The notes under the pieces are model-generated. The model worked only from the letters and a program-made list of their open reading frames with translations, was not told the DNA's origin and did not search any database. The position numbers were made by a program, and so were the translations under genes. This document shows, piece by piece, positions 17,384 through 50,793 of a DNA stretch of 64,000 nucleotides; position 1 is the first letter of the stretch; each line of letters begins with the position of its first letter. The stretch covers positions 3,906,001 to 3,970,000 of the forward strand of contig JAYXKI010000001.1 of NCBI GenBank assembly GCA_037892935.1. Reading direction: 5' to 3'. This stretch comes from Phlebopus portentosus. Its lineage: Eukaryota; Basidiomycota; Agaricomycetes; Boletales; Boletinellaceae.

Positions 17384-17517
17384 TCTCCTGGTTTCTTAAA
17401 ATTGTGACTGTCTGCAGTCACACTTCCAATAGGGTTAGACTCAGCATCTCTAGATTCTTGACACGTAAAACGCAGTTTGCGACGTGTTCCATTCATCTAT
17501 CCTCTCTTCTCTCTGTC

Positions 17518-21729: not shown

Positions 21730-24700
21730 TTGATTGGGGACGAGGAAAGTAAGGAATCAGGCGAAACACAGCTACTCAAATCTTCGAGACTGATCCGTCG
21801 AGTTCCACAATGACATATGAGCCAGCTTTTGTTTTGCATACTATCACGTAGGGTCCTAGGTATCAGGGCTTCATCTTGCGATTAAGTTCCATTTTGATGC
21901 ACGTATTTCACAACAAAATGAGTCGTCCTGGCTGAAAGTCATAGTCTTTGATTTTGGCCTTGTTGATCTCTTCGAATTGTCATGTGTATGCATGCCGGGC
22001 ATCAGAAACTAGTCTGGCAATTCGATCCAGTTCCTCAGGACACTTCTGGAGCTGCTTTGTGCAGGTTGCAATGAGTTCCGCAGTTGGAACAGGCGTATCG
22101 ACTGGGGGGGCTAAGTACGTAGCTTTGGCGAGGTCAAAAGGTAGAATAGGCTCTACTCCGTGTACCATGTAATACAGGGACATTCCGGTCACTTTCTGGA
22201 TGGTGATTCTTTCTGCCCAAAATACTGAGTAAGCTTGATCACTCTATTGTTTGTCATTACCGTCTACAGCCTTTATCAGGGCTTCCTGCACATTGTAGTG
22301 GCATCTTTCTACAATTCCATTGGCGTGAGAGTTGTATGCTGATATGCGTATGTGATTGATGTGATATCAATCCTTGAGGTAATCGAGTGCTGCGACGAAT
22401 GGTTTCCCATTATCTGTTATGAGCTCGGGACAAGCGCCATATCTGCAAAGGAGGTCTTGGAAAATGAACTGGGCTATTGCTTTGCCGGTTTCTTCGTGCA
22501 AGAGTTGGAATTTGGGGTAACTAGATAAAGTGCATTGGGCTTGTACAATGTAGAGATACCTGCGGATTTGAGCTCGGATCTACTCTATTTGGACGATCTG
22601 ACATGCCAATCATCAGAATGATTGACCTTGACCATATGTGGAAGGATCTGCAGTGTGGATCAGTAGGTTGTGCATTTACGGTTCAGCAGCCTTCTGTTCC
22701 CCTCCATCCAGCCTCACTCTCTATTGTCTACCCCTTTCAGACGACAGGCTGTGATGCAGATGACTTGGTTGGATGTCCATATTTACATTTTATTTGGTTT
22801 CTTTTCTTATTTATCTCCCTGAATCATGTTTCGAGCCTTTGTTGTATGGGTGGCTCACTACTGTATATAAGCCTCCTGTGCCGCTCTAATGAAAAGGGGG
22901 AGCCCCAGAACGCCCCAGTTTCGACTCATATCATCTCCAGTCAAGTTTCCTAGTCTCCCAGCTTCGTCTCAGTCCGTTCCCTCGAGTTCCAGTCCAGTTC
23001 CGACAGTTGCACCAGTTGTGCATATACTCCAGCCCAGCAGATCGTCGATTTTGCTATATCTCCATCAGTTCTCCACCGATCACCTTGGTCCAGCATTCGT
23101 TCGATTTGTCTCATTGTTCTGCATCTTCGAGTATTTTCATCCACGAGTTCTGCAGAGTTCCGCTTCATTTCGCCAAGTTCCGATTTTACAATAGTTTTCC
23201 GATATCTTGTTCAGTCTGTATCTCCCTCATTTCTTATCCGTTCATTGTGATTCTTGATCTGTTAGGATCGTGTCGACGAGTACTTTTGATCTCTTATTTT
23301 ACATCATCGTCTTAGCTAGCTAGTTTTCGACCTCAGAGTAGGTGGCTCAGTTTACACTTCCGACACGGCACCCTTTTGTATTTTGTTTCCCCCTTCTCTA
23401 AGCCATTCCCCTCGACACCAGCATACACTCCTCACATTTTAGACACTCCCTCTTACATTGTACACATCTGGTTGACCCCCAGAGGTCGAACTCAGACCTT
23501 CAGACTGTTAGTTGGCCTTCAGAGCCAGCAGACATGTTTCAACGATGTACTGGTATCCTCCAGACTTTGGCATTACCTTGGTGTTGATGTGTATGCGCTG
23601 GAAAATCAATGGTATTGCTGGTATGACCAGGGGAATTAGAATGTTCTTCATCTGGCAAACTTGGCATTCATGACAGGTGCGCACATAGTATTTGACGTCT
23701 GGTCCAAGGGTAGGCCACCAAAATCATTCTAAGAGTCGAATTTGAACAGAGTATACTCCCTTGTGGCCTAGATTGTCATGCGCTTGCTTTACGAGGTTTC
23801 ATCTGTGTTCTGGTTCGATTATGACCTAGTGTCATCCGTTCCGCACCTTCTTCCACAAACATCCATCTCTAGCGAAGAAATTGGCCGCATATCTGATCAG
23901 TGCTGCATAGCTATGATTGTCTAACTAATCTGGTCACTTCTGGCCAATCAAGAAGCTCTTGACATCATCTAAGTGAGTATCTTTTGGGTTAGCTTTCTCA
24001 GAGCTGAGAAATAAGGTCAACACGATGTCAGTCATCTTCAGGAAGTCAGAGTTGCCATTTCCCTCCCGGCATTTCCCATTCGGTCTCTTGAGGTATCCTA
24101 CCGATCCGAGAGTTGCTTGCGCATTTCCAGGGCTCGATGGGAGTTGTTTCGCTTGGTTGCGTGCACGTAAGTCCACGCAATATGTCGTAACTGGGTTTTT
24201 GATGTAGAATCTATATGTATCATCTATCCACTCTTCGTATCCTTTGTCTGGAGGTGGATCTTCAGGTGCCGGAGGTCGTCGAGAAAGTCCGTTGGTGCAT
24301 TTGAAGTCTGCCACTAGGATGTGGCGAATCTTGAAGTCGAATAGAAGTATCCCGGTGATCCAGCAGTTGATCGTAGCATTAGGTTGTAAGTCCGGGTTGT
24401 TAATCATGCCGTTGATGTATGCTGTGTCCATTTCTATGACAAGCTTGCATACTCCGATGAGAAATAGTTGCATAGCGTGTAACGTACAAAATAGTCTGTA
24501 AAGTTCAATTTTCAGTTGGGAGTATGTTGCTTGCGTGGCATTCTAGTTTATGGAACCGAAGTGATTAATCCTTCTTCGTCCATCTACGTGTTCTTGACCC
24601 AAATACCATCCTACTCCAATAATTGATAAATCCACTGCAAGTACGACTTTGAGTTCCAATTGATAGTCTATTGCGCATAGAGCTAGACACCTAATGACCG

Positions 24701-26192
24701 CTTCCTTCAACTCGTCCATTGATTCCTGTTCTTTGTCTGTCCAATTGAAAATGTTGTTCTTCCAAGTGAGTCGATTGAGGGGGCGTGCGATCTTGGCAAA
24801 ATCCTTAATGAAAATTTGCAGGACTCTCACTGTTCCAAGGAATCCTTTGACTTTGGTTACCGATTGGCATGGTGGCCAGTCCCTGACCTTCTGGACTTTC
24901 GATTCATCTGGCTCTCATCCATAATATGTCAGTTTGTGTCTGAGAAACATGATTGACTCAACGCCGATCTCTATTTTCTTTCCTGAGTACGTTCCTCCCA
25001 CTGCCTTGACTTGCTACAAAATTTGATTTATGTTGCATATATGCTCATAAATAAATCGCCTAATCCCTGGATTCTCTGGCAGGGTTTCATAAGAGCCATC
25101 CAGGAGTTCATAGCGCGTTTTGGGACCTAATCCAGGTAAATCATCTGCATACAGATTGGTACAGTGCAGAATCTCATCTTGTAGAATGAAAGCGACGTCA
25201 TTGTGCATAATCTGAAGGGAATTCATGTATCCCATTGGGAGAACTGTCATTCTGAATGTTCCCAAGGGAGTTTGAAATGTCGTGAGATCTCGAGAGCGCT
25301 CATCTAGAACTCACTGGTCAAAAGCTACATAGAAATTGAGGCTCAAATAACAATTTCATCCGCTGCAATGCTCCGCAATGGTCTCTATATTCGGCAGAAC
25401 GGCTGAATCTTGAATGGAAATGCTATTCATGTCTTGCAGGTTGAGTATAATCTGAAGGGAGACTCCATCCTTCTTGACAAGGCAAAACCATTATGATTGG
25501 TATGAGGAGTTGGACAGTTCAATGGCTCCATTCTTGATTTTCTCATGAATTAGGTGGATGGTACGCTTGAGAATACCCGGAGGAATAGATATGTTCTTGT
25601 GTACCCACAGTACATGTGGTACTATCGGGATGCAAATTGGATCGAAGTATTGCACATCGAAACTACCTCATTCCACTTCTGTTCACGCTAGTGCTCCTTC
25701 CTGCAGCATAAGTAGGTTAGCAACTAGCATCCTTTCCTTGGGCCATTAGAACTGATTCTCGTCAATTTTGAGAACTTCAAACTGTTCCCTCATAAGTCTG
25801 CCTATAGGCGTAAACGGTTTTGGTTTCTTTAGTATTTTGGGTAGTCCTTCGAGTGGGTTCGGATGCCTCCTTCGAATGATCCAAAATTCTTCTGGTAGTA
25901 CCCCGGGGACAGGCCGTACTTTCTGAGCGACGTGTTTATACATGAGGACTGCCGCATCGTCGTCATCTGGGGTCTCTAGAGTACATGATCTATAAGGTCA
26001 ATTTGAATAGTCAGTAGTGAAATGCATAGGGTCTTTTATCAGCTTCCAATGCTGGTTACTAAATAGAGAGGTGAAAGTGTCGGAAACACTGATAGAATAG
26101 ATAGAAAATGCATTATTGAGGCTTGAATATGAATAATCGCCTACATCTCGCTGACGTCTCAGTATCAGTTCCTTGACATCTGCTGAAAACCC
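21730..26192 (-). pseudogene. Decayed pol of Element 1 (RT, RNase H, integrase)
   Basis: Colinear with Element 2 pol. It is split by many stops and by the solo LTR at 22549-23541. Readable pieces include the RNase H/tether part (23934-24473), the RT thumb to RNase H (24543-24830), and the YADD-containing RT core (25014-25265). It keeps CAG at 22196-22198 (minus strand), where Element 2 has a TAG stop. The -1 frameshift heptamer is conserved at 26186-26192. Confidence 0.87.
22549..23541. mobile_element. Solo LTR inserted in Element 1 integrase
   Basis: 993 bp missing from the colinear position in Element 2 (about 44230). Ends TGTAGAGATACC...CATGTTTCA, flanked by ACAA (22545-22548) and ACGA (23542-23545), a 4-bp duplication with one CpG-type change. 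It contains a TATATAAG promoter-like box at about 22863. No open frame with a known domain is present. Confidence 0.82.
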
Positions 26193-28769
26193 TATTGTGC
26201 AACGTTGTGTAATATGTTCTGAATTCCTGTTGTGACCTTACTATGTTGATTCCTGTCATTGGGGTCGGATAGCATTATATGCTGGTCTCCCAAGGTATAA
26301 TCCTTGGTTTCACATTTGGTTACTGCGAAGAAGGGTCATCCGAGCAGCACCTGGAATGGTGCCTGATGAACGACATGCACTTGCAGGGAAAGATCAATCC
26401 CAGCTATCGTAAACTTGGCATTTGGGATCAGTCCTATGGTGGCCGACTTTGCCATGTCTGCCATCTCGACGGTCATGCTCTGGTCCGGCGATAGGGGCAC
26501 TTGAAGCTTCTCCCAAATGTCTTCCCTAATCAGACACACTGCTGTGCCTTGATCAAGTATGCACTCCACTTCCATCACGTCCTCTACTACAGCTGTAACC
26601 ATACAAAGGGGGAGAGTTGCTTCTGCGGTCACTCCTGACATTCCAATGGACAGAATCAAGTCCTCAGGTTGTTGTAATGCAGTTCCACATAGTTGCATGG
26701 CGTAACTTAGTGATTCAACGAGATTCACATCAGCAGTGTTATATCTCTTTGCGGTAGTGAGTTCTTTTAGTTGCTTTTGTAGTTTGGGGGCGATTGATAA
26801 CAGTTCCCTTTGGCTAAGCATAATGCTCGTATCAAGTGTCCGAGTGAGCATGTTAGAGACAGCGTTAGAGTCTTCAACGGGGACTACATAGCAGTATTGG
26901 GGTTGGGGGTTCGAGGGTTTTCTAATATTATCCCACTGCGGTGACGAATATGAAACTGCTGGGGGCTTAGGAATAGGGGGTGGTGACTGCTGCGCCTTTG
27001 AGGCCCCTCTTCCCAGCAGTCCCACCTTAGTTGGAATGACTACTCCATTGAACTTCTGCCTCTTACCAGTTGCCGCTTTCTTCTTTGCCTTGTTGAGCAA
27101 GATTTCTAAATGTTCCAGTTCATAATCGGTTTCTTCTGTCTGATCCTCGCCAATTTCTTGGAGCATAGCTGATACTATTGGCTTGGCTGGGGTTTCCGGG
27201 TGCTCGGCAACTTCAATAATGTTGACTGGATGTGACGGGTTCAGCTTTAGCAAGTTGTCAATTTGCTCTATCAGGTTCTGGCCCGAAACCCTACTTGATA
27301 CAAAGGCTCCGTTCAGCATGACTACTTGTCCGTTCGAGTCACGTAGACACTTCCTGGCCTGGATATACTCGAGTACCTTTGGGCATGACCTTATAAAGTG
27401 GCCGGGATCGCTGCAGAATGCACATCTGGGCATGCGAGCCAATAGGGCCAGTTGCAGACCTGTTGCGATTCGAGGGCCCTGGCCTCTAGTGAGTGATTCC
27501 AGTGTTACCTGAAAACCTTTCAATATTTCTCAAACTTTACTCAAGTCTGTTTCTTCCTTCTTGATGGTCATTTCATGTCCTCCCAATGATGCGCTCATTG
27601 TTGTGCTCATTCCGCTACTCATTGGGTCAGATCTGATCTGATCGACTACGGATCCTGAAAGAATGTACATAGCTGCATTTGCTACTTTCTTGATGTCATA
27701 GGGGTCACCCCTCTCATGGTCTGGGCCTTTGATTTCGAGCCTCTGCAGAATATCCTTCCTAGTCTGGCCCAATATGCCTTGGAGAAACACAAATTTTGAG
27801 TCATTCTTGGTAAGTTTGTTGCTGGCAACGAGATACCTAGCTCTGCATAGGAACTCGTGATGATAAGTGCTGAATTCATCTCTGGTGTGAATACCTTTCT
27901 CACCCCATTTGGTGATGAACTGCTCCAATTTGCCCCTAGAGTATCTCTTGCCGTCTGCCAAACTTAGATAAAGCTTTTTGATGGCCGTTTTAAAATCTCC
28001 GATGCTTGCAGGGGTGGCAGAAACTTTGGGGAGGGTCTCCCATACTTCTGCAACATCAGTCTTTGCATAGTACAGATACCCATGTCTGATCATAGTCGAT
28101 GCATCCCAGTTAGAATCTATTGCGATCACATCCACGTCATCAAAGAAGCAGAACAGTTTCTTCAGATCAGAACCGTTGAATACTGGTGCTCTCTTGTCAC
28201 CTCAAAGAGGCAGTCTAACTGCAGCTATCTGGTTCGATATATGCTGCAACTGCTGATAATTGGTCTGAAGTTGGTTAAGGATCTGCAGATTACTTTCCAG
28301 TCCTTGGAGGTGGTGAGTGAGAGTTAATTTGCTTAGTTGCGACTATTGTGCAAGCGGATCAACTTGGATTGCTTGATTGGAGGTTTGAGGCTGTCTGAGC
28401 CTAGCAGGGTCTGGGTAATCGAGTCGAACAGTGATATCCTCTGGCGACGAGGATTCTTGCTTGGAGAATTCGATAGGTAGATCAGTTTCTTGGAAACTAA
28501 AAGGAGACAATTCGGCTGACACCTCGAATGATGGTAGGGTACTGGACTCAGTTAGAGGTGAAGGTTGAATTACTGAAGAACTTAGCAACAATGCTGTGGT
28601 GCTTCTAGCACTTGCCCTCTGCCTAGGTGTCCGAGGTGTGACTTGGGGTAAGGCTTGATGAACTACGGGGATACAGGCTGATTAGCTACAGGTAGTCCAA
28701 GTACTACCTGGAGTTTGGTTACTCGTTTGGGATGAACAGTGAATTTCCCCCCTTGCCGGGGGCTCCACT
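26165..28769 (-). pseudogene. Decayed gag-protease of Element 1
   Basis: Two long open pieces (27530-28135 and 26336-27523) plus shorter ones match Element 2 gag. The zinc knuckle CAFCSDPGHFIRSC and the protease motif LDQGTAV are still visible. Stops and missense changes track lost CpG sites. Confidence 0.87.
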
Positions 28770-30126
28770 TGAAACTCCAGAGAACTGTCTGATAGCTGAG
28801 GAGTGTCACAGTTCTTGGGGGCTGTTTAGTAAGATTAAAATGAGTGGGAAAGAGAAGGGTGACTTTAGGGAAAACTAAAGAAGGGCTGATGCATCGATCT
28901 GGGTTCTAGAGCAGTTCCGGAAGGGATGGAGGAGAAATGGGATTGAAGGCTGCTGGATGTATGTGGGGAGGGGATTGGATCAAAGGAGATAGGTGAAGAA
29001 GCAAGGTGGGAGAGGTCGAAGCAAAGGGGGTCAGCGGTGGCAATGCAAAGGTAATCGATGTCCTCACAGGTAATCCCTCGATGGATTCGAACCCTGGAGG
29101 CGGAAGACAATGAGACGAAGCTTAGAGAAGGACTTCCCCTAAGTGCTGATGATACAAAAGTGATCCCTTCGAGGATCTGACACGATATAACAGGTTTTAA
29201 CCAGTTACGACAGGTTTCAGTGGGTTACAAAATGAAATGAAGCAATACGATGTGGAATAAAGCAATACGCAAGGGACTCAAGTGAGACCTTGCGTAGAGA
29301 CATAAGGAAGAGTGATGAGGGTTTCTGACTTCAACACGGGTTGAACTGATCACACTGGGCTCAAGTACAACTGCAGAGCAGTAGACTCCAGGCATATGAG
29401 ACAGAACTATCATGTATTTGTGGGAGATAGAGAGTCAAGGAGGGTACAGGAAGAGTTGAATTAGTCTCGACTGTAGCTAGAGTGGGTTCCTAGTCTGAAC
29501 TGAACTTTGGACTGAGCTGTTCCAAGCTAAACTGTCCTCTGCTCTCCAAACTGGGCTCCTACTATGAGTTGCTCACCTATTTATAAATTTGTCCAAACCT
29601 GAGCCCTTGGAGCATCAGGGAGCATAACAAAAGAAAATCGGAAGTGATAAGCATAAGGGAACACATGGGAAACAAAAGACGATGTGAGCATATCTGGAAA
29701 GTGGTGGGATAATGACCATAGAGCATAATATGAAATGTGAACACATATGAAATGGTGAGCATAAGGAATCATAGGGGACAAAACAAAATGTGAATGCATA
29801 TGGGACTCAAAAGGGAAAAGCCGGAGCGCATCACGTCGGGTCAAAGCTTGGGGGTGTCAGGGGCCGATTGCGGATCCTTCAATTTACCTTTTGTGCCTAG
29901 GTTTTAGTAAGACAGGCTAGCTAAGTCAGCCTTTATAAGTTTTCGACTGGGTGGCTCGAGGGTCCGAAAGTTCTTCCTACACAGCGGTCAAATGCGAGAG
30001 GCTATAATAGTCTGTTCCACTTCAAATCAAATTGATCTGCACTGAGTTCCGCTGTTACAATGCGGATTACCATAGAATATGTGTCACGTATGCGATCTCA
30101 GACCTAGCATGTCAATGCTTCTTACA
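28770..30126 (-). repeat. Element 1 5' LTR (right)
   Basis: 1357 bp; begins TGAAACTCC and ends CTTCTTACA on the plus strand. It is followed by the target duplication GCGT. Confidence 0.92.
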
Positions 30127-30874
30127 GCGTGAACAGTAGTTTAGCTCCAGTGACTGCTGGACTGTTACTAGTCAAATTAGGAATACTGATCCTGTTGATC
30201 TGCTGATTGTGTCAATCTTGATGCGAGTTTTTGAGTGGATCCTTTCACTACCCCCCTTCTAAGATGAACTTTCGGAGAAATGTTCATCCTAATCTGTGAG
30301 AAAGCTCAGATAAAGGAGTCGCCTAGTGATAGTTGATATTGCTATCAAACTATCATCATCACTACCCAGTTATGTCCAAAGTCGCTGCTGTCCGCATTGT
30401 TTTTATCATGCTTGTCGCAATTTTCAGTGTGAATCTTTGAATTCTAGAGCACAGGAGGCATAATGAGGTGAGTTCTCTTGCCTCTGTTTGCAGGTTGTAA
30501 CTACTGATAGTCCTATAGGAGAATGATTATGAGATGCAATCAGTTCCTAAAGGGACTGCAGATATTCAGCAGCACGTCAACTGCATTTTCTCTGACCCTG
30601 ATGCGCCTTCTGATTCAGCCAAAACTGTTGATAAAGTGGGTATTTTAGCACAGGAAAGTTGTGAGAAGGGTGTTTGGAAAGTCATTGATATGTAAAGGGT
30701 GGTGGGAAGGGATGTGAATGTGAAATGTGAAATATGCATCATGTAAAGAATTATGATGCAATTTGAAAGTGATAAGAAAGAAAAGTCATAAAGTTATTAC
30801 TAAATGAGTTTTATGTCACTTTGGAAGTGACTTGTCTGGTGTATTGACTGGGCAAGGGGTGATATTTAACTAAC

Positions 30875-32494: not shown

Positions 32495-34065
32495 TGTTAG
32501 AGGTGTAGGTCCAGAGTTACACCAGTTTCGATCCTTTTGCCTAAGCAGCAGTATATTGTGCAGAGGTGATCTATCTACCTACATTTAGCTGTACCACAGT
32601 CCCCTTACTAACCTTCCTAGTCACAGTCCTGATTAGGGATGCTTTCAGAGACAAGGTAGAGTAAGAGCAGATTGGGATTTCTAAGAGGCATAGTAGTACA
32701 AAGCACACAATGGATAGTGAGTTAAGACACTGTCGCTGTGTGTTAAGAGGATTGAAAGATAGAAGAAAGAGGGCCTACTTCTAATGCTATTTATGCTTTC
32801 TAGATAATTCATTTTCTGTCCTATTTCTTACTCATCTTCTCTCCACTTGACTCCACCTTGCTCCACCTTGCTCCACTTCTCTCCACCATTACATCACTTC
32901 CTTTGTCATTCTACTCCACTGAGCACTACTTTGTTCCAACATATCTCCACTATGACAGAATTCTATGGAGTTGCTGACTAAGACAATAGAGGTGCTGTTT
33001 TAGTATAGAAAGCTCCACTGTCAGTGCTCCATGATGATGTTGATTCCATCACCAGGTGGGATTGTAGCTCTTGTGCAATGTAGGCAGCTCAATATGTGAC
33101 TCTTTGCTGTTTGTCTTGTGGTCCAAAGGGTGTAAGCACAACTTGCACATTAGTATTGAGATGTCAGGTTGGTGTAGAGTATGGTCCAATACATACCATG
33201 AACTGTATGAGTTTAGCTGGGGGATGCAGTTGTGTTTGAGTGACTAGCCATGCTTTGCCTGGAAGTTGAATGTTGTGAATGTACTGCCATATCCTTCATT
33301 GGAGTACCAGTTGTAGTTGCTTGGTATCTTAGTTTGCGTTTTTTGGTAAATAAAGGTTCGCTTGTACTGTAAAAGCTGGACATGAATTGTGCAGCTCTGG
33401 CTTGTACCATCCTATTAACCTCCAAGTTATTGGGTCTGCAGCTTGAGGGGATCGAGTTGTAACAATAAGTTCCTTATGTTGCTTGGGTATTATAGGATTT
33501 GGTGGATTGGTATGTAATGTTTCTTATGTGTGATGTTGGACTTTGATCTGGCAGTCACATGTTTTGCTTGTAGTATAACATACTGTGAAGTATATCTCAT
33601 AAAGGACCATGTACACTTGGGCACAGGTCTGACAGTGCTGAAATGCCAGTGATGTCTCGATTGGGCTTGGATTAGCCTTTAGACTTTAGTCGTTAGGCGT
33701 TAGGCTTTAGTAGTCACGTTCTAAACTTCTCAGGCTTCTAGTAGTTTGATTGCTTCTTGACTTCTTTTGATCAGGTTGGATCGGGAGTTTGGTTGGTGGT
33801 GTTAAGGTGACAGTCAGTGGTAATAAGTCAGTGGTGGTAATTGCTGGTTGGTAGTGTTGAGTAGTCCACAAGGTTACATACTTGTAGCATGCTTCTCAGA
33901 TGCTCATATATTGCTGTTGATGCTCGTAACTGTTGCCTTGGTCACATGAACAGTAGTTTGGCTCCAGTGACTGCTGGACTATTACTAGTCACATTTAGAA
34001 TGCTGATCCTGTTGATCTGTTGATTGTATTGATCTTGATGTGAGTTTTTGAGCAGATCCTTTCAG
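32495..34065 (-). repeat. 5' LTR of the non-autonomous element
   Basis: 1571 bp, colinear with 14550-16026 plus 30131-30247. It includes a run of CTCCACTTG/CTCCACC-type short repeats (about 32837-32890, matching 14931-14970). Relative to the interrupted left copy the differences are mostly C/T and G/A. Confidence 0.8.
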
Positions 34066-39295: not shown

Positions 39296-39299
39296 CCGA

Positions 39300-40643
39300 T
39301 GAAACTCCTGTGCACTGTCTGATAGCTGAGGAGTGTCACAGTTCTTGGGGGCTGTTCGGTAAGATTTAAAACGAGTGGGAAAGAGAAGGGTGATCTTTGG
39401 GGGGAAAACTAGAGAAGGGCTGATGCGTCGATCTGGGTTCCGGAGCAGTTCCGGAAGGGATGGAGGAGAAATGGGATTGAAGGCTGCTGGATGTATGCGA
39501 GGGGGGGGATTGGATTAAAGGAGATAGGCGAAGAAGCAAGGCGGGAGAAGTCGAAGCAAGGGGGGATCGGCGGTGGCGGTGCGAAGGTAATCGATGTCCT
39601 CACAGGTAATCCCTCGATGGATTCGAACCCTGAAGGCGGAAGACGATGAGACGAAGCTTAGAGAAGGACTTCCCCTGAGCGCTGACGATTCGAAGGTGAT
39701 CCTTTCGAGGATCCGACACGATATAACGGGTTACGACGAGTTACGACGGGTTTCGGTGGGTTACGAAGCGAAACGGAGCGATACGACGCGGAACGAAGCG
39801 ATACGCAAGGGACTCAAGTGAGACCTCGCGTAGAGGCGTAGGGAGGAGAGATGAGGGTCTCCGACTTCAACACGGGTTGAACTGATCACACTGGGCTCGG
39901 GTACGACTGCAGAGCAGGAGACTCGAGGCGTATGAGACAGAACTATCGTGTATTTGTGGGAGATAGAGTCGAGGAGAGTACAGGAAGAGTCGAATTGGTC
40001 TCGACTGTAGCTAAAGTGGGTTCAAGCCCGAGCTAAACTGTTTCCTGCTAAAACTCTCGGGCTAAAACTGGGCTCCTACTACAAGTTGCTCGCCTATTTA
40101 TAACTTTGTCCGAACCTGAGCCATCGGAGCGTCAGGGAGCATAACGAAAGGAAATCGGAAGTGAAAATCATAAGGGAACACACGGGAACAAAGTACGAGG
40201 CGAGCATATCTGGAAGGTGGCGAGATAATGACCATAGAGCATAATACGAAATGTGAGCGCACACGGAATAATGAGCATAAGAATCATAAGGAACAAAACA
40301 AAATATGAACGCATATGGGACTCAAAAAGGGGAAAAGCCGGAGTGCGTCGCGTCGGGTCGAAACTTGGGAGGTGTCGGGGGCCGATTGCGGATCCTTCAA
40401 TTTACCTCTCGTGCCTGGGTTTAGTAAGACGAGCTAGCTAAGTCAGCCTTTGTAAGTTTTCGACTGGGTGGCTCGAGCGTCCGAAGGTTCTTCCTACGCA
40501 GCGGTCGAGTGCGAGAGGCTACAGTAGTCCGTTCCACTTCGAATCGAATCGATCCGCACCGAGTTCCGCTGTTACGATGCGGATCACCGCGGAACACGTG
40601 TCACGTGCGCGATCTCGGACCTAGCGTGTCGGTGCTTCTTACA
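39300..40643 (-). repeat. Element 2 3' LTR (left)
   Basis: 1344 bp, TGAAACTCC...CTTCTTACA on the plus strand. The accessory gene starts 134 bp beyond it and reads away from it, so this LTR may act as an antisense-facing promoter (inference). A TATTTATAA box lies at 40094-40102. Confidence 0.95.
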
Positions 40644-40658
40644 TCTCCCGGTTTCTTG
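40644..40658 (-). promoter_or_regulatory. Element 2 polypurine tract
   Basis: Minus strand reads CAAGAAACCGGGAGA immediately before the LTR start TGTAAGAAGC. A purine-rich run here is the expected plus-strand primer of reverse transcription. The match is moderate (CC interruption). Confidence 0.6.
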
Positions 40659-40777
40659 AAATCGTGACTGTCCGCAGTCACACTCCCAATAGGGTTAGAC
40701 TCGGCGTCTCTAGATTCTTGACGCGTAAAACGCGGTTCGCGACGCGTTCCGTTCATCTATCCTCTCTTCTCTCCGTC

Positions 40778-42698
40778 ATGTCCCAACAACAGCAACAACA
40801 ACAGCGACAACAGCAACAACCGCAACAGCAGCAACAACAGCCACTGTTCGACGAGATCCCTGTCTCAGCGGAGGGCTTCGTGTTCAGCGATACGTGGCTT
40901 TACGGTGTCGGAAACCAGGTCCAGGTCATCGAGCGTTTGCACGAGGACGTGGATCAGAGACGGTTCGTGAGGATGACCGTTGCGCAGTCCGTTGAGAGGG
41001 CGGAGGAAATGCGTGAGATCCAGGTGCGCTTTCTTTTCTGTCTTCATCTATTCTCTTCGTTCCGTTCCGACTTCCTGAACTTCATAGACTGCGAGAAAGA
41101 GACTCGAGGACCTTCGGCCCGAGTGGGTGCCCATCGATTTGATGTGGCCGCCGTATGCCGCGCGTTTCTGGGCGGAAAGCGTGGTTGCGCTTGCGGATCG
41201 TTGCGCAACCCTCAACATCAACTGCGACCAGCTTGATGCGCTCAAGGCTTCGTACCTCGAGGACGAAAAGCGTTCGAAGCCGGACACCGAAGTCTACGTT
41301 CAGCAATGGCGCGCGGGTTTGACCGGTCTAGAAGGGGCGATCGGTCGTCACCGCGATCTGCTACGGCCACTGGTTGGCCATTTCGACGAAAGGAAGGACG
41401 AGCTGGAGAACACGGTCATGAAGATCGATCTGGACCAGGTGAGTGCTCATTCTCGCTTCTTCTTCAAATCTTGCTAACTGTTGAACTTCTAGCTATGGCG
41501 GATGTTTTGGGTCGGTCGTCGTCCTCCCGGCACGGAGATTGACGACGTCTGGACCGAATTCGGGTGGCTCGCTTGGGCGGAGATCCGGGGAATCCTCCTC
41601 TCAGCGCCGCTGAAGAGTCACGTCCACGAGGCCCTGCGGTGCTGGACTGCGTATGAGGAGAAGTGCTGCCCGTGCTCGGTCAAAGCCGCAGACGCCCTCG
41701 TTGCGCTGCGTTCCGACGCGCATCTCGGCGGATCGGGCCCCTTTTCGTCGGGTATATCCGAATTGACCGAGTCTGCCCTCAGGACGCTGCTGGGTCGTCA
41801 AGACTTGAGTCAGGTGGAGCGGGAGTCCGTCATCAGCGAGCTGGAAGATCGTGCGGACCGAGTTTCGTACTTGAGCGAGCTGGAGAAGATGGCAAGCGCG
41901 GTCAGGGTTCCGTCGCCGTCTTCGGATCGCGAGAGAGATGAGAGGCCCACGAAGCGGCCTCGGATTGTCGATTATTCGAGCGACGAGGAGTCGGTAGAGG
42001 GGAACTGCAACAACAGCAGCAGCAACATTCCTTCTGCTGCCAACGGTTTCTCTTCTGGGGGTCCGGCTGGAGATGACGACTTTGGGGCTTTTGACGAAGC
42101 GCCCCTCTTTCTTCCGGACGGTGCTGTCAGCGAGAGCAACAGCAGCAACAGCAATCCTCCGGCTGCGAGCGAGTCTCCGAGTGCAGAACGAATGGAAGAG
42201 GATGAGGGAAGCCGAGGCGATGGCGGGGACGGCAGCAGCAGTAGCAGCAGCAGCAGCAATTCGTCTGCTGGTGGCTGGGTCGTGCATGATGAGGGGTGTG
42301 AGAGGTGCGCGAGGACAGGCCGGGTCTGTGAGGGTTTCCCTGGGCAGGCCTGTGATTACTGCCGCACGAAGGCCAGGCGGCGATGCGAGCTGGCTACGCA
42401 CGGGAGGGCTGCGCGTCGCCTGCGGAACGAGCAGGTGGAACGCGAGACGCGCGAAGCTCGTCAGCGCGCAACGGCGCAGGTGCTGAGGATGCCGGTTGCG
42501 CCTGTCCTCGAGGTGAGTGACATCGAGGAGTTGGTCGCCGGGACGGACGAGAGCGCCGTCCATTTCCGGATGGCGGCCTTGGAGAGGCGCGCGCGCGTGT
42601 TGTTCCGCGCTGCGGATCAACTGCGCAACCTAGCGGAGGAGATGCTGGCCGAGACCAGTGCGCTAGGAAGGGTGGTAAGGGGTGAGGAGGAAGAGTAA
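40778..42698 (+). CDS. Antisense accessory gene of Element 2: polyQ, Zn2Cys6-type protein, 3 exons, 600 aa
   Basis: Exons 40778-41023, 41088-41438, 41493-42698; introns of 64 and 54 bp (the second with a CTAAC branch site), both phase 0, give 600 residues. Residues 3-20 are a Gln-rich run. A helical region follows (ERAEEMREIQ, WVPIDLMWPPYAARFW, ALADRCATLNINCDQL), then TKRPRIVDY as a possible nuclear signal, acidic/Ser-rich low complexity, and at 468-497 a cysteine cluster spaced CX2CX6CX7CX2CX7C, which satisfies the fungal Zn2Cys6 spacing. An Arg/Glu-rich, coiled-coil-like tail ends in REARQRATAQ and GEEEE. It lies between pol and the 3' LTR, opposite to gag-pol, and is uninterrupted. It could bind DNA or RNA and regulate the element or host genes, but function is unknown. 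The spliced model is strong because Element 1 keeps the same splice sites. Confidence 0.8.
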
Positions 42699-43272
42699 GG
42701 AGTAAGAGGAGTGAGGAGAGGGGGTAGAGTGCGTCAAAAACGACGCTTTTCGTCTAGTGTCCCCTCATGGGACGAATAAAAACAAAGAAAAAGAAGAAAA
42801 AGAAAAAAATAATTTGAACTTTTGTATATATAGTTTTTGTGCGTTTTTGAATGTTATGAATTTTTGTTTGCGGTTTTGACGTTTGGGGTGAAGGTAAATG
42901 AGGCGAGGTCGAAGAATAATGGAAGAATGAGGATTGAGATATGAGAAAATGAGAGATTAGAGAAAATAAGCGGTGATTATTGAGTCGAAAGGACTGAGAG
43001 AAAAATAAGCTAGTTGCGCTGTTTTGCGCAGCGCTACGCCGGGTTGCGATTCGCAACTGAGCGCATGAAGGTGAACACGCGGTTGAACGCGTATCTCGGT
43101 TTGCGCGAACACTTTTCCGAGGGTCTAAATGCGGTTGAGCGCGAATAATTCGAAGGAAGGAAAAATTGAGAGGAAAATCGGGAGAGGAATGAAATGAAAC
43201 GAATAATCGAAGGGATCTAATAGAAGAAGAATGTCAGTGGTTTGCATGGAAGGTATCAGAACTGAATGGTGT

Positions 43273-46200
43273 TTATAAGTTGAGGTTTTGAGATTCCGAC
43301 TGGGCGTCGGAAACGTCGTCTTCTTCTGGTTCGATTGGGGGGTTGGCGTCGTCCTCAAGTTCGTCATCTGCTGCGTTTACGAGTTTAGTAACGGGTACAG
43401 AGAGATTCGAACGAGGAAAGTAAGGAATCAGGCGAAACGCAGCTACTCGGATCTTCGAGACTGATCCGTCGAGTTCCGCAATGACATATGAACCGGCCTT
43501 TGTTTTGCGTACTACCACGTAGGGTCCTAGGTATCGGGGCTTCGTCTTGCGATTAAGTTCCATTTTGATGCGCGTATTTCGCAACAATACGAGTCGTCCT
43601 GGCTGGAAATCGTAGTCTTTGATTTTGGCCTTGTTGATCTCTTCGAATTGCCGCGCGTATGCATGCCGGGCATCGGAAACTAATCTGGCGATTCGATCCA
43701 GTTCCTCAGGACGCTTCTGGAGCTGCTTCGCGCGAGTTGCGATGAGTTCCGCAGTCGGAACAGGCGTATCGACCGGGGGGGCTAAGTACGTGGCTTCGGC
43801 GAGGTCGAAAGGTAGAATAGGCTCTACTCCGTGTACCATGTAATACGGGGACATTCCGGTCGCCTTCTAGATGGTGATTCTTTCTGCCCAAAATACTGAG
43901 TAAGCTTGGTCGCTCCATCGTTTGTCATTACCGTCTACAGCCTTTATCAGGGCTTCCTGCACATCGTAGTGGCGTCTTTCTACAATTCCATTAGCGCGAG
44001 AGTTGTATGCTGAGATGCGTATGTGATTGATGTGATATCGATTCTTGAGGTAATCGAGTGCTGCGATGAACGGTTTCCCATTATCTGTTACGAGCTCGGG
44101 ACAAGCGCCGTATCTGCAAAGGAGGTCTTGGAAAATGAACTGGGCTATCGCTTTGCCGGTTTCTTCGCGCAAGAGTCGAAATTCGGGGTAACCGGATAAA
44201 GCGCATCGGGCTTGTACGATGTACCGGTATCCTCCAGACTTCGGCATTACCTTGGTGTCGATGTGTATGCGCTGGAAAATCGATGGTATTGTTGGTACGA
44301 CCGGGGGAATTAGAATGTTCTTCGTCTGGCGAACTTGGCACTCATGACAGGTGCGCACGTAGTATTTGACGTCTGGACCGAGGGTAGGCCACCAAAATCG
44401 TTCCAGGAGTCGAATTCGAACAGAGTATACTCCCTTGTGGCCTAGATCGTCATGCGCTTGCTTTACGAGGTTCCATCTGCGTTCCGGTTCGATTACGACC
44501 TGGTGTCGTCCGTTCCGCACCTTCTTCCACAAACGTCCGTCTCTAGCGAAGAAATTTGCCGCGTACCTGATCAGCGCTGCATAGCCACGATCGTCTAACT
44601 GATCCGGTCGCTTCTGGCCGATCAAGAAGCTCTTGACGTGATCCAAGCGAGCATCTTTCGGGTTAGCTCTCTCGGAGCTGGGAAACAAGGTCAACGCGAT
44701 GTCAGTCATCTTCGGGAAGTCAGAGCTGCCGTTTCCCTTCCGGCGTTTACTGTTCGAGCCCTCGAGGTATCCTACTGATCCGAGAGTTGCTTGCGCATTT
44801 CCAGGGCTCGATGGGAGTCGTTTCGCTTGGTTGCGCGCACGTAAGTCTGCGCAATACGTCGTAACTGGGTTTTCGATGTAGAATCCATACGTGTCGTCTA
44901 TCCACTCTTCGTATCCTTTGTCCGGAGGTGGATCTTCGGGTGCCGGGGGTCGTCGAGAAAGTCCGTCGGTGCATTTGAAGTTTGCCGCCGGGATGTGGCG
45001 AATCTCGAAGTCGAATAGAAGTATCCCGGCGATCCAGCGGTTGATCGTAGCGTTTGGTTGTAAGTCCGGGTTGTTAATCATGCCTTTGATGTATGCTGCG
45101 TCCATTTCTACGACAAGCTTGCGCACCCCGATGAGATATAGTCGCATGGCGTGTAACGTACGAAATAGTCCGTAAAGTTCGATTTTCGGTTGGGAGTATG
45201 TTGCTTGCGTGGCATTCCAGTTTATGGAACCGAAGCGATTAATCCTTCTTCGTCCATCTACGTGTTCTTGACCCAAATACCATCCTACTCCGATAATCGA
45301 CGAATCCACCGCAAGTACAACTTCGAGTTCCGATTGATAGTCTATTGCGCATAGAGCTGGACACCTAATGACCGCTTCTTTCAACTCGTTCATTGATTCC
45401 TGTTCTTCGTCTGTCCAATCGAAAATGTTGTTCTTCCGAGTGAGTCGATTGAGGGGGCGTGCTATCTTGGCGAAATCCTTAATGAAAATTCGCAGGACTC
45501 CCACTGTTCCGAGGAATCCTTTGACTTCGGTTACGGATCGGCATGGCGGCCAGTCACTGACCTTCTGGACTTTCGATTCGTCTGGCTCTCGTCCATAATA
45601 TGTCAGTTTGTGTCCGAGAAATACGATTGACTCAACGCCGATCTCCATTTTCTTTCCTGAGTACGTCCCTCCCACTGCCTTGACTCGCTGCAAAATTCGA
45701 TTTACGTCGCATATATGCTCGTAAATAAATCGCCTAATCCCTGGATTCTCTGGCAGGGTTTCGTAAGAGCCATCCGGGAGTTCGTAGCGCGTTTTGGGAC
45801 CTAATCCGGGCGAATCGTCTGCATACGGATCGGTACAGTGCGGAATCTCGTCTTGTAGGATGAAAGCGACGTCATTGTGCATAATCTGAAGGGAATTCGT
45901 GTATCCCATCGGGAGAACCGTCATTCTGAACGTTCCCAAGGGAGTCTGAAATGTCGTGAGATCTCGAGAGCGTTCGTCTAGAACTCGCTGGTCAAAAGCC
46001 ACATAGAAATCGAGGCTCGAATAACAACTTCGTCCGCCGCAACGCTCCGCAATGGTCTCTATATTCGGCGGAACGGCTGAGTCTCGGACGGAAACGCCAT
46101 TCATGTCTTGCAGGTCGAGTATAAATCGAAGGGAGACTCCATCTTTCTTGACTAGGCAAAACCATCGTGATCGGTACGAGGAGTTAGACGGTTCAATGGC

Positions 46201-46866
46201 TCCATTCTTGATTTTCTCGCGAATCAGGTTGATGGTACGCTCGAGAATACCCGGAGGAATAGGTATGTTCTTGTGTACCCACGGTACATGCGGTACCGTC
46301 GGGATGCGAATCGGATCGAAGTATTGCGCATCGAAACTACCCCGTTCCGCTTCCGTCCACGCTAGTGCTCCTTCCTGCAGCATAAGTAGGTTAGCCACTA
46401 GCAGCCTTTCTTCGGGCCATAAGAACTGATTCTCGTCAATCCTGAGGGCTTCAAACCGCTCCTTCGTAAGTCTGCCTATGGGCGTAAACGGTTTCGGTTT
46501 CTTTGGTATTTCGGACAGTCCTTCGAGCGGGTTCGGATGCCTCCTTCGAACGATCCGAAATTCTTCTGGTAGTACCCCGGGGACGGGCCGTACTTTCTGA
46601 GCGACGCGTTTGTACATGAGTACCGCCGGGTCGTCGTCGTCCGGGGTCTCTAGAATACATGATCTATAAGGTCGATTTGAATAGTCAGTAGCGAAACGCA
46701 TTGGGTCTTTCATCAGCTTCCGAAGCTGGTTACTAAATAGAGAGGTGAAAGCGTCGGAAACATCAATAGAATAGATAGAAAACGTATTGTTGAGGCTTGA
46801 ACATGAATAATCGCCTACGTCTCGCTGACGTCTTAGTATCAGTTCCTCGACGTCTGCTGAAAACCC
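43273..46866 (-). CDS. Element 2 pol: reverse transcriptase, RNase H, integrase (one nonsense codon)
   Basis: The frame is entered by -1 slippage at 46860-46866 and stays open to a TAG at 43867-43869. After that it continues in the same frame to 43273. Numbered from the Met at 46713: RT with FILDLQDMNG (198 on) and catalytic YADD (297-300); RNase H with AVDSS (D470), E513 and D538; integrase HHCC finger H754, H759, C789, C792; catalytic D819 (IHIDTKVMP), D877 (VTDNGKP) and E912 (SRANGIVERR). After the TAG comes the GPY/F-type C-terminal domain (RYLGPYVVVRKTKAGS). No chromodomain. The TAG replaces a CAG present in Element 1. Confidence 0.92.
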
Positions 46867-49442
46867 TGTTGCGCAACGTTGCGCAACACGTTCCGAATTC
46901 CAGTCGCGACCTTGCTATGTCGATTCCTGTCGTTGGGGTCTGATAGCGTTATATGCTGGTCTCCCGAGGTATAATCCTTGGTTTCGCATTCGGTTACTGC
47001 GAAGAAGGGTCGTCCGAGTAGCGCCTGAAACGGCGCCTGACGAACGACATGCACTTGCAGGGAAAGATCAATCCCGGCTATCGTAAACTTGGCGTTCGGG
47101 ATTAGTCCTACGGTGGCCGACTTCGCTGTGTCCGCCATCTCGATGGTCGTGCTCTGGTCCGGTGACAGGGGCACTTGAAGTTTTTCCCAAACGTCTTCCC
47201 TAATCAGACACACTGCTGCGCCTTGATCGAGTACGCACTCCACTTCCATCGCGTCCTCCACTACGGCTGTAATCGTACGAAGGGGGAGAGTTGCTTCCGC
47301 GGTCACTCCCGACGTTCCGATGGACAGAATCGAGTCCTCAGGTTGTTGCGATGCGGTTCCGCACAGTTGCATGGCGTAACTCGGCGATTCGACGAGATTC
47401 ACATCGGCAGCGTTATATCTCTTTGCGGTAGTGAGTTCCTTTAGTTGCTTTCGTAGTTCGGGGGCGATCGATAACAGTTCCCTTTGGCTAAGCGTAATGC
47501 TCGTGTCGAGCGTCCGAGTGAGCACGTTAGAGACAGCGTTAGAATCTTCAACGGGGACTACGTAGCGGTATTGGGGTTGGGGGTTCGAGGGTTTTCTAAT
47601 ATCGTCCCGCTGCGGTGACGAACGTGAAACCGCCGGGGACTTAGGATTAGGGGGTGGCGACTGCTGCGCCTTCGAAGCCCCTCTTCCCGGCGGTCCCACT
47701 TTTGTCGGAATGACTACTCCGTCGAACTTCTGCCTTTTACCAGTCGCCGCTTTCTTCTTTGCCTCGTTGAGCAAGATTTCTAAACGTTCTACTTCGTAAT
47801 CGGTCTCTTCTGTCTGATCCTCGCCGATTTCCTGGAGCATAGCTGATGCTATCGGCTCGGCCGGGGTTTCCGGGTGCTCGGCGACTTCGATGATGTTGAC
47901 TGGATGTGACGGGTTCGGCTTTAGCAAGTTGTCAATTCGCTCCATCAGGTTCCGGCCCGAAACCCTACTCGATACGAAGGCTCCGTTTGGCATGACTACT
48001 CGTCCGTTCGAGTCACGTAGACACTTTCCGGCCTGGATATACTCGAGTACCTTTGGGCACGACCTTATAAAGTGGCCGGGATCGCTGCAGAACGCACATC
48101 CGGGCGTGCGAGCCAATGGGGCCGGTTGCGGACCTGTTGCGATTCGAGGGCCCTGGCCTCTAGTGAGCGATTCCAGTGTTACCTGAAAACCCTTCAGCGT
48201 TTCCCAAACTTTACTCAAGTCCGTTTCTTCCTTCTTGACGGTCATTCCATGTCCTCCCGACGACGCGCTCATCGTTGCGCTCGTTCCGCCGCTCATCGGG
48301 TCGGATCCGATCTGATCGACTGCGGATCCCGAAAGAATGTACATAGCTGCGTTTGCTACTTTCTCGATGTCGTAGGGGTCGCCCCTCTCGTGGTCCGGGT
48401 CCTTGATTTCGAGCCTTTGCAGGATATCCTTCCTAGTCTGGCCCGAAATGCCTCGAAGAAACGCGAATTTCGAGTCGTTCTCGGTAAGTTTGTTGCTGGT
48501 AACTAGATACCTGGCTCTGCGTAGGAACTCGCGATGATAAGTGCCGAATTCATCTCTGGTGTGAATACCTTTTTCGGCCCATTCGGCGATGAACTGCTCC
48601 AATTCGCCCCTAGAGTATCTCTTGCCGTCTGCCAAACTTGGATAAAGCTTCTTGACGGCCGTTTTGAAATCTCCGACGCTCGCAGGGGCGGCAGAAACTT
48701 CGGGGAGGGTCTCCCATACTTCTGCAACGTCAGTCTTCGCATAGTACAGGTACCCACGTCTGATGGTAGTCGACGCATCCCAGTTGGAATCTATTGCGAT
48801 CGCATCCACGTCGTCGAAGAAGCGGAACAGTTCCTTCGGATCGGAACCGTCGAATACTGGTGCTCTCTTGTCACCTCGAAGAGGTGGTCTAACTGCAGCC
48901 ATCTGGTTCGATATACGCTGCAACTGCTGATAATTGGTCTGAAGTTGGTTAAGGATCTGCAGGTTACTTCCCAGTCCTTGGAGGTGGTGAGCGAGAGTTA
49001 ATCCGCTTGGTTGCGACTGTTGCGCAAGCGGATCGACTTGGATCGCTTGATTGGAGGTTTGAGGCTGTCTGAGCCTAGCGGGGTCTGGGTAATCGAGTCG
49101 AACAGTGATATCCTCAGGCGACGAGGATTCTTGCTCGGAGAATTCGGTAGGTAGATCGGTTTCTTGGAAACTAAAAGGAGACGATTCGGCCGACGGCTCG
49201 AACGATGGTAGGGTACTGGACTCGGTCAGAGGTGAAGGTTGAATTACTGAAGAACTTAGCGACGATGCTGTGGTGCTTCTAGCGCTTGCCCTCTGCCTAG
49301 GTGTCCGAGGTGTGACTTGGGGTAAGGCTTGGTGAACTACGGGGATACGGGCTGATTGGCTTCGGGTAGTCCGAGTACTACCTGGAGTTTGGTTACTCGT
49401 TTTGGACGAACAGTGAATTTCCCCCCTCGCCGGGGGCTCCAC
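46839..49442 (-). CDS. Element 2 gag-protease
   Basis: 867 codons open from the primer-binding site to TGA at 46839. The N-terminal ~160 residues are Ser/Pro/Gln-rich. A capsid-like region follows (KRAPVFDGSDPKELFRFFDD, then RRGYLYYAKTDVAEVWETL). A CCHC zinc knuckle CAFCSDPGHFIRSC is at about 448-461. An aspartic protease has VLDQGAAVCLI at about 737 and the late ALLGRPFF motif. The first in-frame ATG is only at 48902 (687 residues from there); upstream the frame is open but has no Met, even into the LTR. Initiation may use that ATG, a spliced leader exon, or a non-AUG codon. Fusing protease to gag ahead of a pol frameshift fits Ty3/gypsy elements. Confidence 0.9.
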   Translation of the reverse strand: MEPPARGEIHCSSKTSNQTPGSTRTTRSQSARIPVVHQALPQVTPRTPRQRASARSTTASSLSSSVIQPSPLTESSTLPSFEPSAESSPFSFQETDLPTEFSEQESSSPEDITVRLDYPDPARLRQPQTSNQAIQVDPLAQQSQPSGLTLAHHLQGLGSNLQILNQLQTNYQQLQRISNQMAAVRPPLRGDKRAPVFDGSDPKELFRFFDDVDAIAIDSNWDASTTIRRGYLYYAKTDVAEVWETLPEVSAAPASVGDFKTAVKKLYPSLADGKRYSRGELEQFIAEWAEKGIHTRDEFGTYHREFLRRARYLVTSNKLTENDSKFAFLRGISGQTRKDILQRLEIKDPDHERGDPYDIEKVANAAMYILSGSAVDQIGSDPMSGGTSATMSASSGGHGMTVKKEETDLSKVWETLKGFQVTLESLTRGQGPRIATGPQPAPLARTPGCAFCSDPGHFIRSCPKVLEYIQAGKCLRDSNGRVVMPNGAFVSSRVSGRNLMERIDNLLKPNPSHPVNIIEVAEHPETPAEPIASAMLQEIGEDQTEETDYEVERLEILLNEAKKKAATGKRQKFDGVVIPTKVGPPGRGASKAQQSPPPNPKSPAVSRSSPQRDDIRKPSNPQPQYRYVVPVEDSNAVSNVLTRTLDTSITLSQRELLSIAPELRKQLKELTTAKRYNAADVNLVESPSYAMQLCGTASQQPEDSILSIGTSGVTAEATLPLRTITAVVEDAMEVECVLDQGAAVCLIREDVWEKLQVPLSPDQSTTIEMADTAKSATVGLIPNAKFTIAGIDLSLQVHVVRQAPFQALLGRPFFAVTECETKDYTSGDQHITLSDPNDRNRHSKVATGIRNVLRNVAQQGFQQTSRN
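46860..46866 (-). promoter_or_regulatory. Programmed -1 ribosomal frameshift site (G GGU UUU)
   Basis: Minus strand reads CA GGG TTT TCAG. In the gag frame the codons are CAG GGT TTT CAG, and slipping back one base on G GGT TTT leads directly into the open pol frame (SADVEELIL). The gag stop lies 21 nt downstream. The heptamer obeys the X XXY YYZ rule and is conserved in Element 1 (26186-26192). Confidence 0.82.
49427..49441 (-). promoter_or_regulatory. Element 2 tRNA primer-binding site
   Basis: Two bases inside the 5' LTR end the minus strand reads TGGAGCCCCCGGCGA, which starts with the TGG expected to pair with a tRNA CCA end. The matching tRNA was not identified. Confidence 0.6.
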
Positions 49443-49443
49443 T

Positions 49444-50789
49444 TGAAACTCCTGTGCACTGTCTGATAGCTGAGGAGTGTCACAGTTCTTGGGGGCTGTT
49501 CGGTAAGATTTAAAACGAGTGGGAAAGAGAAGGGTGATCTTTGGGGGGAAAACTAGAGAAGGGCTGATGCGTCGATCTGGGTTCCGGAGCAGTTCCGGAA
49601 GGGATGGAGGAGAAATGGGATTGAAGGCTGCTGGATGTATGCGAGGGGGGGGGATTGGATTAAAGGAGATAGGCGAAGAAGCAAGGCGGGAGAAGTCGAA
49701 GCAAGGGGGGGATCGGCGGTGGCAGTGCGAAGGTAATCGATGTCCTCACAGGTAATCCCTCGATGGATTCGAACCCTGAAGGCGGAAGACGATGAGACGA
49801 AGCTTAGAGAAGGACTTCCCCTGAGCGCTGACGATTCGAAGGTGATCCTTTCGAGGATCCGACACGATATAACGGGTTACGACGAGTTACGACGGGTTTC
49901 GGTGGGTTACGAAGCGAAACGGAGCGATACGACGCGGAACGAAGCGATACGCAAGGGACTCAAGTGAGACCTCGCGTAGAGGCGTAGGGAGGAGAGATGA
50001 GGGTCTCCGACTTCAACACGGGTTGAACTGATCACACTGGGCTCGGGTACGACTGCAGAGCAGGAGACTCGAGGCGTATGAGACAGAACTATCGTGTATT
50101 TGTGGGAGATAGAGTCGAGGAGAGTACAGGAAGAGTCGAATTGGTCTCGACTGTAGCTAAAGTGGGTTCAAGCCCGAGCTAAACTGTTTCCTGCTAAAAC
50201 TCTCGGGCTAAAACTGGGCTCCTACTACAAGTTGCTCGCCTATTTATAACTTTGTCCGAACCTGAGCCATCGGAGCGTCAGGGAGCATAACGAAAGGAAA
50301 TCGGAAGTGAAAATCATAAGGGAACACACGGGAACAAAGTACGAGGCGAGCATATCTGGAAGGTGGCGAGATAATGACCATAGAGCATAATACGAAATGT
50401 GAGCGCACACGGAATAATGAGCATAAGAATCATAAGGAACAAAACAAAATATGAACGCATATGGGACTCAAAAAGGGGAAAAGCCGGAGTGCGTCGCGTC
50501 GGGTCGAAACTTGGGAGGTGTCGGGGGCCGATTGCGGATCCTTCAATTTACCTCTCGTGCCTGGGTTTAGTAAGACGAGCTAGCTAAGTCAGCCTTTGTA
50601 AGTTTTCGACTGGGTGGCTCGAGCGTCCGAAGGTTCTTCCTACGCAGCGGTCGAGTGCGAGAGGCTACAGTAGTCCGTTCCACTTCGAATCGAATCGATC
50701 CGCACCGAGTTCCGCTGTTACGATGCGGATCACCGCGGAACACGTGTCACGTGCGCGATCTCGGACCTAGCGTGTCGGTGCTTCTTACA
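49444..50789 (-). repeat. Element 2 5' LTR (right)
   Basis: 1346 bp, almost identical to 39300-40643. It is followed on the right by the target duplication CCGA. The gag frame stays open about 100 codons into this LTR. Confidence 0.95.
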
Positions 50790-50793
50790 CCGA

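Follow-up and report, generated by a model that had tools for sequence, protein, structure and literature searches.

Does a gene that lies antisense to gag and pol within a fungal gypsy retrotransposon encode a protein that regulates its own element, and does it do so in a family-specific manner? This question is raised by a 64,000-nt stretch of the Phlebopus portentosus genome (assembly GCA_037892935.1, contig JAYXKI010000001.1, positions 3,906,001 to 3,970,000 of the forward strand), hereafter the window, whose own numbering we use. The retrotransposon, Element 2, runs on the minus strand, and between its pol and its 3′ long terminal repeat (LTR) a three-exon gene on the opposite strand to gag-pol specifies a product of 600 aa. 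We conclude that this antisense gene has been under past purifying selection and is no chance frame.

The earlier note on this DNA had described a three-exon antisense frame of 600 residues, and its exon coordinates proved exact to the base, with two GT..AG introns. Exon 1 (40778..41023, plus strand, beginning with poly-Q) and exon 2 (41088..41438) were defined by splice search and translation, and exon 3 occupies 41493..42698. Intron 1 (41024..41087, 64 bp, GTGCGC..TCATAG) and intron 2 (41439..41492, 54 bp, GTGAGT..TTCTAG) are both phase 0 and were placed by splice search and copy comparison; the search listed 12 open combinations for the two intron regions, and the 600-aa model is the combination with ordinary donors and pyrimidine-rich acceptors. 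A public Sanghuangporus sanghuang model (P0004, 577 aa) has exon 1 spliced differently, so the exon 1 boundaries are a prediction. The ATG lies 134 bp inside the LTR edge with a CT-rich stretch immediately 5′ of it, and an AATAAA at 42775..42780, 76 bp past the stop codon, is a candidate polyadenylation signal. The poly-Q start, the TKRPRIVDY basic patch, the Ser/acidic stretches and the six cysteines spaced CX2CX6CX7CX2CX7C that the note reported are all present in the translated protein. Exon 3 encodes the basic patch (41949..41975, a candidate nuclear localisation signal), Ser/Asn/acidic low complexity, the cysteine cluster (42297..42386, residues 468-497) and predicted long helices at the C-terminus. 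The cysteine spacing occurs only once in the protein, with Cys at 468, 471, 478, 486, 489 and 497.

In the genome searched (38.4 Mb, 23 contigs), 21 listed copies from the family of Element 2, here called family A, cover nearly the whole exon-3 query. The start, the ends of both introns and the entire frame are intact in 13 of these, and 12 of the 13 retain all six cluster cysteines. Selection was assessed on 19 copies (L001-L019) by a test that preserves the base and CpG spectrum, skipping columns in which the reference carries a minority base (3 and 5 for the gene); changes private to one copy arose mostly after insertion, and shared changes mostly during the lineage's active period. Measured against L005, the normalised ratio of replacement to silent changes in the gene is 0.98 for private changes (n = 155; 57 silent, 94 replacement, 4 stop) and 0.58 for shared ones (n = 60; 30 silent, 29 replacement, 1 stop; P = 0.022), and with L008 as reference the shared ratio is 0.61 (n = 58, P = 0.039). 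The corresponding private and shared ratios in the wrong frames are 1.24 and 1.13 (frame +1) and 0.88 and 1.90 (frame +2). The 3′ part of pol gives 0.85 for private and 0.37 for shared changes against L005 (n = 29, P = 0.006) and 0.40 for shared changes against L008 (P = 0.014); L010, whose alignment fails in this part (21 gapped codons; 426 differences), was excluded for pol. Shared changes in the gene are thus moderately depleted of replacements, and copy-private changes look neutral. Neutrality across copies had been named beforehand as grounds for abandoning the idea, and a shared ratio of 0.58 is not neutral.

When the C-terminus of the gene product was searched against the genome, many weaker matches (about 25-36% identity) were listed besides family A. 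The weaker ones belong with another gypsy family, B, which has a pol 76-78% identical to that of A over reverse transcriptase (RT)-RNase H and 73-77% over integrase. Among the pol copies listed (the best 48 of 884 candidates; 21 from family A and 27 from family B), the antisense gene lies on the 3′ side in 20 of the 21 A copies and all 27 B copies, and in one family-A case it is 7.7 kb off. By L061 coordinates, the family-B gene has two phase-0 introns and exons of 261, 375 and, with the stop counted, 1554 bp; exon 2 is 351 bp in A versus 375 bp in B, ARK..LE..RP follows intron 1 in both families, and the B intron-2 donor, GGAGTCAC followed by GTAGGT, is present in L062 and L063. L061 itself has lost this donor (at its positions 969-970). 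Family B keeps all six cysteines, spaced CX2CX6CX7CX2CX6C. The A and B C-termini share 44 of 137 aligned residues (about 32%); codons differ at 28 of these 44 identical residues and four-fold third bases agree at only 7 of 25, so silent sites are saturated and the protein match reflects selection on the protein. The N-terminal half is barely alignable between A and B, and thus the antisense gene evolves far faster than pol.

Of 90 genome matches listed for the B C-terminus, 67 are B-like (at least 74% identical) and 23 fall at family-A places; no separate host copy is among them, though a more diverged one could escape. The closest public protein among the matches listed is the hypothetical protein ACEPAF_1598 of S. 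sanghuang (93% identity), and P0004 was the sole match listed in a profile search with A1. Family-B-type predicted proteins occur in S. sanghuang (P0005, P0006, P0009), S. baumii (P0007) and S. weigelae (P0008), all five annotated as hypothetical proteins only. P0005-P0007 are 75-79% identical overall to P0008. The family-B query comprised the C-terminal region only, and its identity to the proteins of S. baumii and S. weigelae is 91% in the Zn/C-terminal part. Homologues are therefore predicted in three Sanghuangporus species. No match outside that genus was among those listed in the protein searches (best 7984 and 7995 candidates by shared words), and poly-Q words probably crowd the candidate lists, so that absence elsewhere is not established.

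Element 2 itself has TG..CA LTR ends and, on the minus strand, gag followed by protease, RT, RNase H and integrase, the organisation of gypsy (Ty3) elements. Its 3′ LTR (39300..40643) and 5′ LTR (49444..50789), found by LTR comparison, differ by 1 mismatch and 2 gap openings over 1346 aligned columns; the near-identity of the LTRs and a 4-bp target duplication, CCGA, read from both flanks (39296-39299 and 50790-50793), indicate a young insertion. A candidate primer-binding site, TGGAGCCCCC, lies just inside the 5′ LTR, from about 49441 downward. The gag-protease frame (46839..49442, start approximate) has a weak zinc knuckle and an aspartic protease, and pol (43273..46713) encodes RT, RNase H and integrase; Pfam matches on the minus strand are integrase H2C2, RNase H, RT and aspartic protease, the RVT_1 match (27.3 bits) being below its cut-off of 29.6. 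An in-frame stop at 43867-43869 in the integrase part of pol means that the window copy may be non-autonomous. Many copies of family A are young. The 3′ part of pol compared is stop-free in 15 of 19 copies, and the matched part is uninterrupted in 8 of the 21 pol copies listed for family A, a count that includes the window copy, whose stop falls just beyond the query. The window also contains Element 1 (about 16020-30200; boundaries approximate, from repeats), an older and degenerate family-A copy (L021) in which the antisense gene no longer has a start codon and is interrupted by 10 internal stops.

Antisense additional open reading frames (ORFs) are known from the plant elements Grande (gene23 among them), RIRE2 and Retand and from Boty of Botrytis (PMC7264820; PMC8365987; literature here and below is cited from the accessible portions of the papers). 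The parallel that the earlier note drew with plant Tat-lineage (Retand) elements, which have an antisense ORF in the same position, is correct (PMC11963269). An antisense gene in a fungal gypsy element does have a precedent: brtn is such a gene of Boty-like gypsy elements in Botrytis cinerea and Sclerotinia (Zhao et al. 2011, cited in PMC8365987, PMC7264820 and PMC4227169), and a Monilinia transcript resembles BRTN (PMC5987419). The likeness to brtn is drawn from descriptions of it; the Boty-like element of PMC4227169 has a chromodomain, and the accessible text mentions no zinc cluster for brtn. An additional ORF of unknown function also appears in a figure legend for Tcn1-like gypsy elements (PMC2864245). 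Our gene is a long antisense frame between pol and the 3′ LTR, as in aORF-3R elements of the Retand/Grande/Boty type, and in both families it is present in all or most of the pol copies listed. Retand elements encode TRP28 proteins with predicted DNA-binding residues (PMC11963269); that is a plant protein with another domain, and TRP28 (PF04195) had no match at E ≤ 10 in the exon-3 protein or in four whole homologues. For fungal gypsy elements, no paper among those listed treats an antisense gene with a zinc cluster; the literature was covered largely by titles and abstract openings, with subscription papers mostly outside.

What, then, might the cluster be? The Zn2Cys6 spacing CX2CX6CX5-12CX2CX6-8C accommodates both families, and when the residues of the family-A protein were shuffled 200,000 times, one shuffle produced this general pattern. 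An AlphaFold model of the C-terminal 141 residues, built with 6 sequences, places the cysteines at 9, 12, 19, 27, 30 and 38 and helices at 10-15 and 28-72, followed by a second long helix. Helices begin at Cys1 and Cys4 in the model, and in Zn2Cys6 domains they likewise begin at Cys1 and Cys4. The antisense protein resembles fungal Zn2Cys6 factors (PF00172) in cysteine spacing and, at the modest confidence of the model, in helix starts and a long post-cluster helix; it is unlike typical members in that its cluster lies near the C-terminus. The AlphaFold model of the entire exon 3 is poor, with a predicted local distance difference test (pLDDT) value of 47. Structure matches in the viral library number 13, all at E of at least 4.9. 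A PDB sequence search gave a best E of 0.23 and its profile version 0.28, with nothing significant; two fission-yeast regulators appear in the profile search at E 4.8 and 6.3, likewise not significant, and one of these, named Pho7, is a zinc-cluster factor. A TFIIA match in P0006 (31.1 bits, cut-off 36.2) was taken as low complexity.

Candidate sites at which such a protein might act lie in the LTR and leader. Simple repeats aside, the DNA of A and B in the stretch from LTR to 3′ untranslated region (UTR) matches best over 52 bp at the LTR edge (40637..40688, 85% match). This block comprises the presumed polypurine tract and contains the palindrome GTGACNGTCCGCNGTCAC; the LTR and 3′ UTR hold further, shorter A/B matches, including one within a CG array. 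The palindrome at 40664..40681, a candidate operator or hairpin, reads GTGACTGTCCGCAGTCAC in family A and GTGACCGTCCGCGGTCAC in family B, and within the B form lies CCG-N4-CGG, an everted arrangement familiar from Leu3. There are 63 exact palindrome sites genome-wide (0 for the reversed control), and 59 of them lie 272-3914 bp upstream of a listed C-terminal match on the same strand. The T..A form belongs to family A at 17 of 17 sites, the C..G form to family B at 37, with 5 mixed forms in addition, and 4 C..G sites have no assigned family gene; the assignment used 95 of 99 C-terminus match rows, 4 short fragments being omitted. The exact palindrome is found in only 17 of 33 family-A rows. Covariation of the palindrome as proof of constraint was dropped, both changes being CpG transitions and single-step forms occurring at 5 of 42 B-assigned sites. 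A CG array in the LTR (39734..39805), with 12 CG dinucleotides at 5/10-bp spacing and units like GGTTACGAAG and CGAAACGGAG, is candidate cis-regulatory sequence. CG pairs at 5-bp steps number 96 in the A LTR versus 34.4 (standard deviation 5.6) in shuffles and 69 versus 36.7 (5.6) in the B LTR, values reached by 0 of 500 shuffles in each case; for pol the figures are 93 versus 80.4 (44 of 500 shuffles). A second LTR array with the same 5/10-bp spacing, at 40530-40561, is possibly likewise a binding array or methylation-related.

We give about an even chance to the reading that the antisense gene encodes a DNA-binding protein, specific to its family, that regulates the LTR of its own element. 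An inward (antisense) promoter where the 3′ LTR meets the element's interior would produce a spliced mRNA, and this in turn a nuclear Zn2Cys6-like protein that would dimerise through its C-terminal helices, bind short sites in the LTR and leader (the CG arrays and/or the palindrome) and so set the transcription level of elements of its own family. An intron-bearing gene can survive retrotransposition in this arrangement because the genomic RNA is of the opposite strand and the introns are not spliced out of it. A regulator that recognises its own family would be expected to diverge, together with its LTR, from family to family while pol stays stable, as is the case here. Because of the Q-rich and acidic stretches we regard activation or anti-silencing as a little more likely than repression. 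We infer that the gene is expressed and that its product is nuclear, forms dimers and binds zinc and DNA, and we infer its target, the sign of regulation and any control of gag-pol or of host promoters of the kind the earlier note had suggested. HBZ/APH of human T-cell leukaemia virus type 1 (HTLV-1) is a tested precedent for an antisense, LTR-driven regulator: it is driven from the 3′ LTR, has a spliced form, resembles a transcription factor and acts on its own LTR (PMC10186651). HBZ is, however, a basic leucine zipper factor of an animal retrovirus, as against a cysteine cluster here, and no homology is claimed. The question is directly testable by binding and reporter assays because the module is small (six cysteines and C-terminal helices), one genome holds two diverged families, candidate LTR sites are at hand and young copies are open.

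A number of observations weigh against this reading. The Pfam Zn_clus profile (PF00172), which had been proposed as a check, has no match at E ≤ 10 in the exon-3 protein or in four whole homologues, and short pieces, at 8.4 bits (A) and 12.6 and 13.1 bits (B), stay below the cut-off of 21; the family B match spans all six cysteines and the best family A match is to the second half of the profile. The antisense genes are also not among the 27 listed Zn_clus matches of the genome at E ≤ 0.001. The pLDDT of the modelled cluster is modest (about 61-71), and no PDB structure matched the C-terminal model, either in Foldseek or in VIA, which had one chain to align. “Zn2Cys6-like” is the safer label given the Zn_clus scores: of the claim of a Zn2Cys6-type protein, the cysteine spacing and its retention in two families stand. 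L019, an otherwise open copy, has lost the third cluster cysteine. Selection inside family A is moderate; of the 14 copies that differ from L001 at more than 5 places, only 5 (L003, L010, L012, L013, L015) have a silent excess at P < 0.05, L016-L018 look neutral in the same comparison, and the Zn/C-terminal part alone, with 11 shared changes and a ratio of 1.15, shows no constraint in family A. Two CpG transitions separate the palindrome forms, so that decay and not compensation may account for their symmetry, and the sites presumably descend together; the palindrome is therefore a lead and not proof. The 52-bp block adjoins the presumed reverse-transcription primer site, which alone could conserve part of it, and CG phasing is slightly raised in the gene too (106 versus 79.4; 2 of 500 shuffles). 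The proposal that the element encodes its own regulator thus retains a real, spliced and selected antisense gene in two families, with a cluster that is only Zn2Cys6-like.

The conservation among copies, the presence in two families and the selection would also suit a protein that acts after transcription, in nuclear import or export, packaging or integration-site choice, like a retroviral accessory factor, with a cysteine cluster that binds RNA or protein. A review of plant antisense ORFs weighs accessory roles (PMC7264820). The sub-threshold Zn_clus scores also agree with this. We consider it possible but rather unlikely, as the cluster, in its spacing and predicted helix starts, is like the DNA-binding Zn2Cys6 fold and the protein has the Q-rich and acidic low complexity typical of transcription factors. 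A protein that instead marks the repeats of its own family and removes or blocks DNA methylation or heterochromatin would account for the much faster divergence of protein and LTR than of pol between A and B and for the short phased CG-rich arrays in the LTRs. VANC of the plant VANDAL transposons is element-encoded, diverges family-specifically and in Arabidopsis often targets tandem repeats that vary among related elements (PMC5735166). Fast divergence has other causes, though, and the likeness to VANC, a protein of plant transposons, is by description only (PMC5735166), and we regard such anti-silencing as unlikely. The fuller proposal of an intron-bearing gene for an anti-silencer or activator with a zinc cluster, specific to the LTR arrays of its own family, with protein and LTR co-diverging while pol stays alike, would make it a retrotransposon counterpart of VANC, and to this too we attach a low probability.

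It is quite improbable that the antisense RNA and not the protein matters, by forming double-stranded RNA with the gag-pol transcript: the gene is antisense and antisense transcription is known in retroelements (PMC10186651; PMC7264820), but this would leave the frame-specific constraint, the six conserved cysteines and the conserved exon layout unexplained. A recently captured host gene, or a functionless frame still open only because the copies are young, might be entertained since many copies are indeed young and some pairs look neutral; a homologue in a second family with saturated silent sites, further homologues in three species, and the lack of a separate host copy among the listed genome matches (which a more diverged copy could escape) make this highly improbable. 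A sense-strand env-like frame of 339 aa (41601-42620, minus) is open in the window copy and stop-free in 14 of 19 copies, with shared-change ratios of 0.64 (P = 0.14, L005) and 0.59 (P = 0.10, L008). That it is the real gene is almost certainly wrong: it has stops in 5 of 19 copies, those with 31-80 gene differences from L001, and it leaves the conserved cysteines and introns unexplained. We rejected it on these stops and the shared-change ratios.

Elsewhere in the window, nested inverted repeats at 11237-12326 have 219-nt arms that are 96% complementary and 242-nt arms that are 88% complementary. Diverged direct repeats (14656-15942 and 32599-33861; 84-88%, ~17.9 kb apart) flank Element 1 and are perhaps the repeats of another, older retrotransposon that hosted later insertions.
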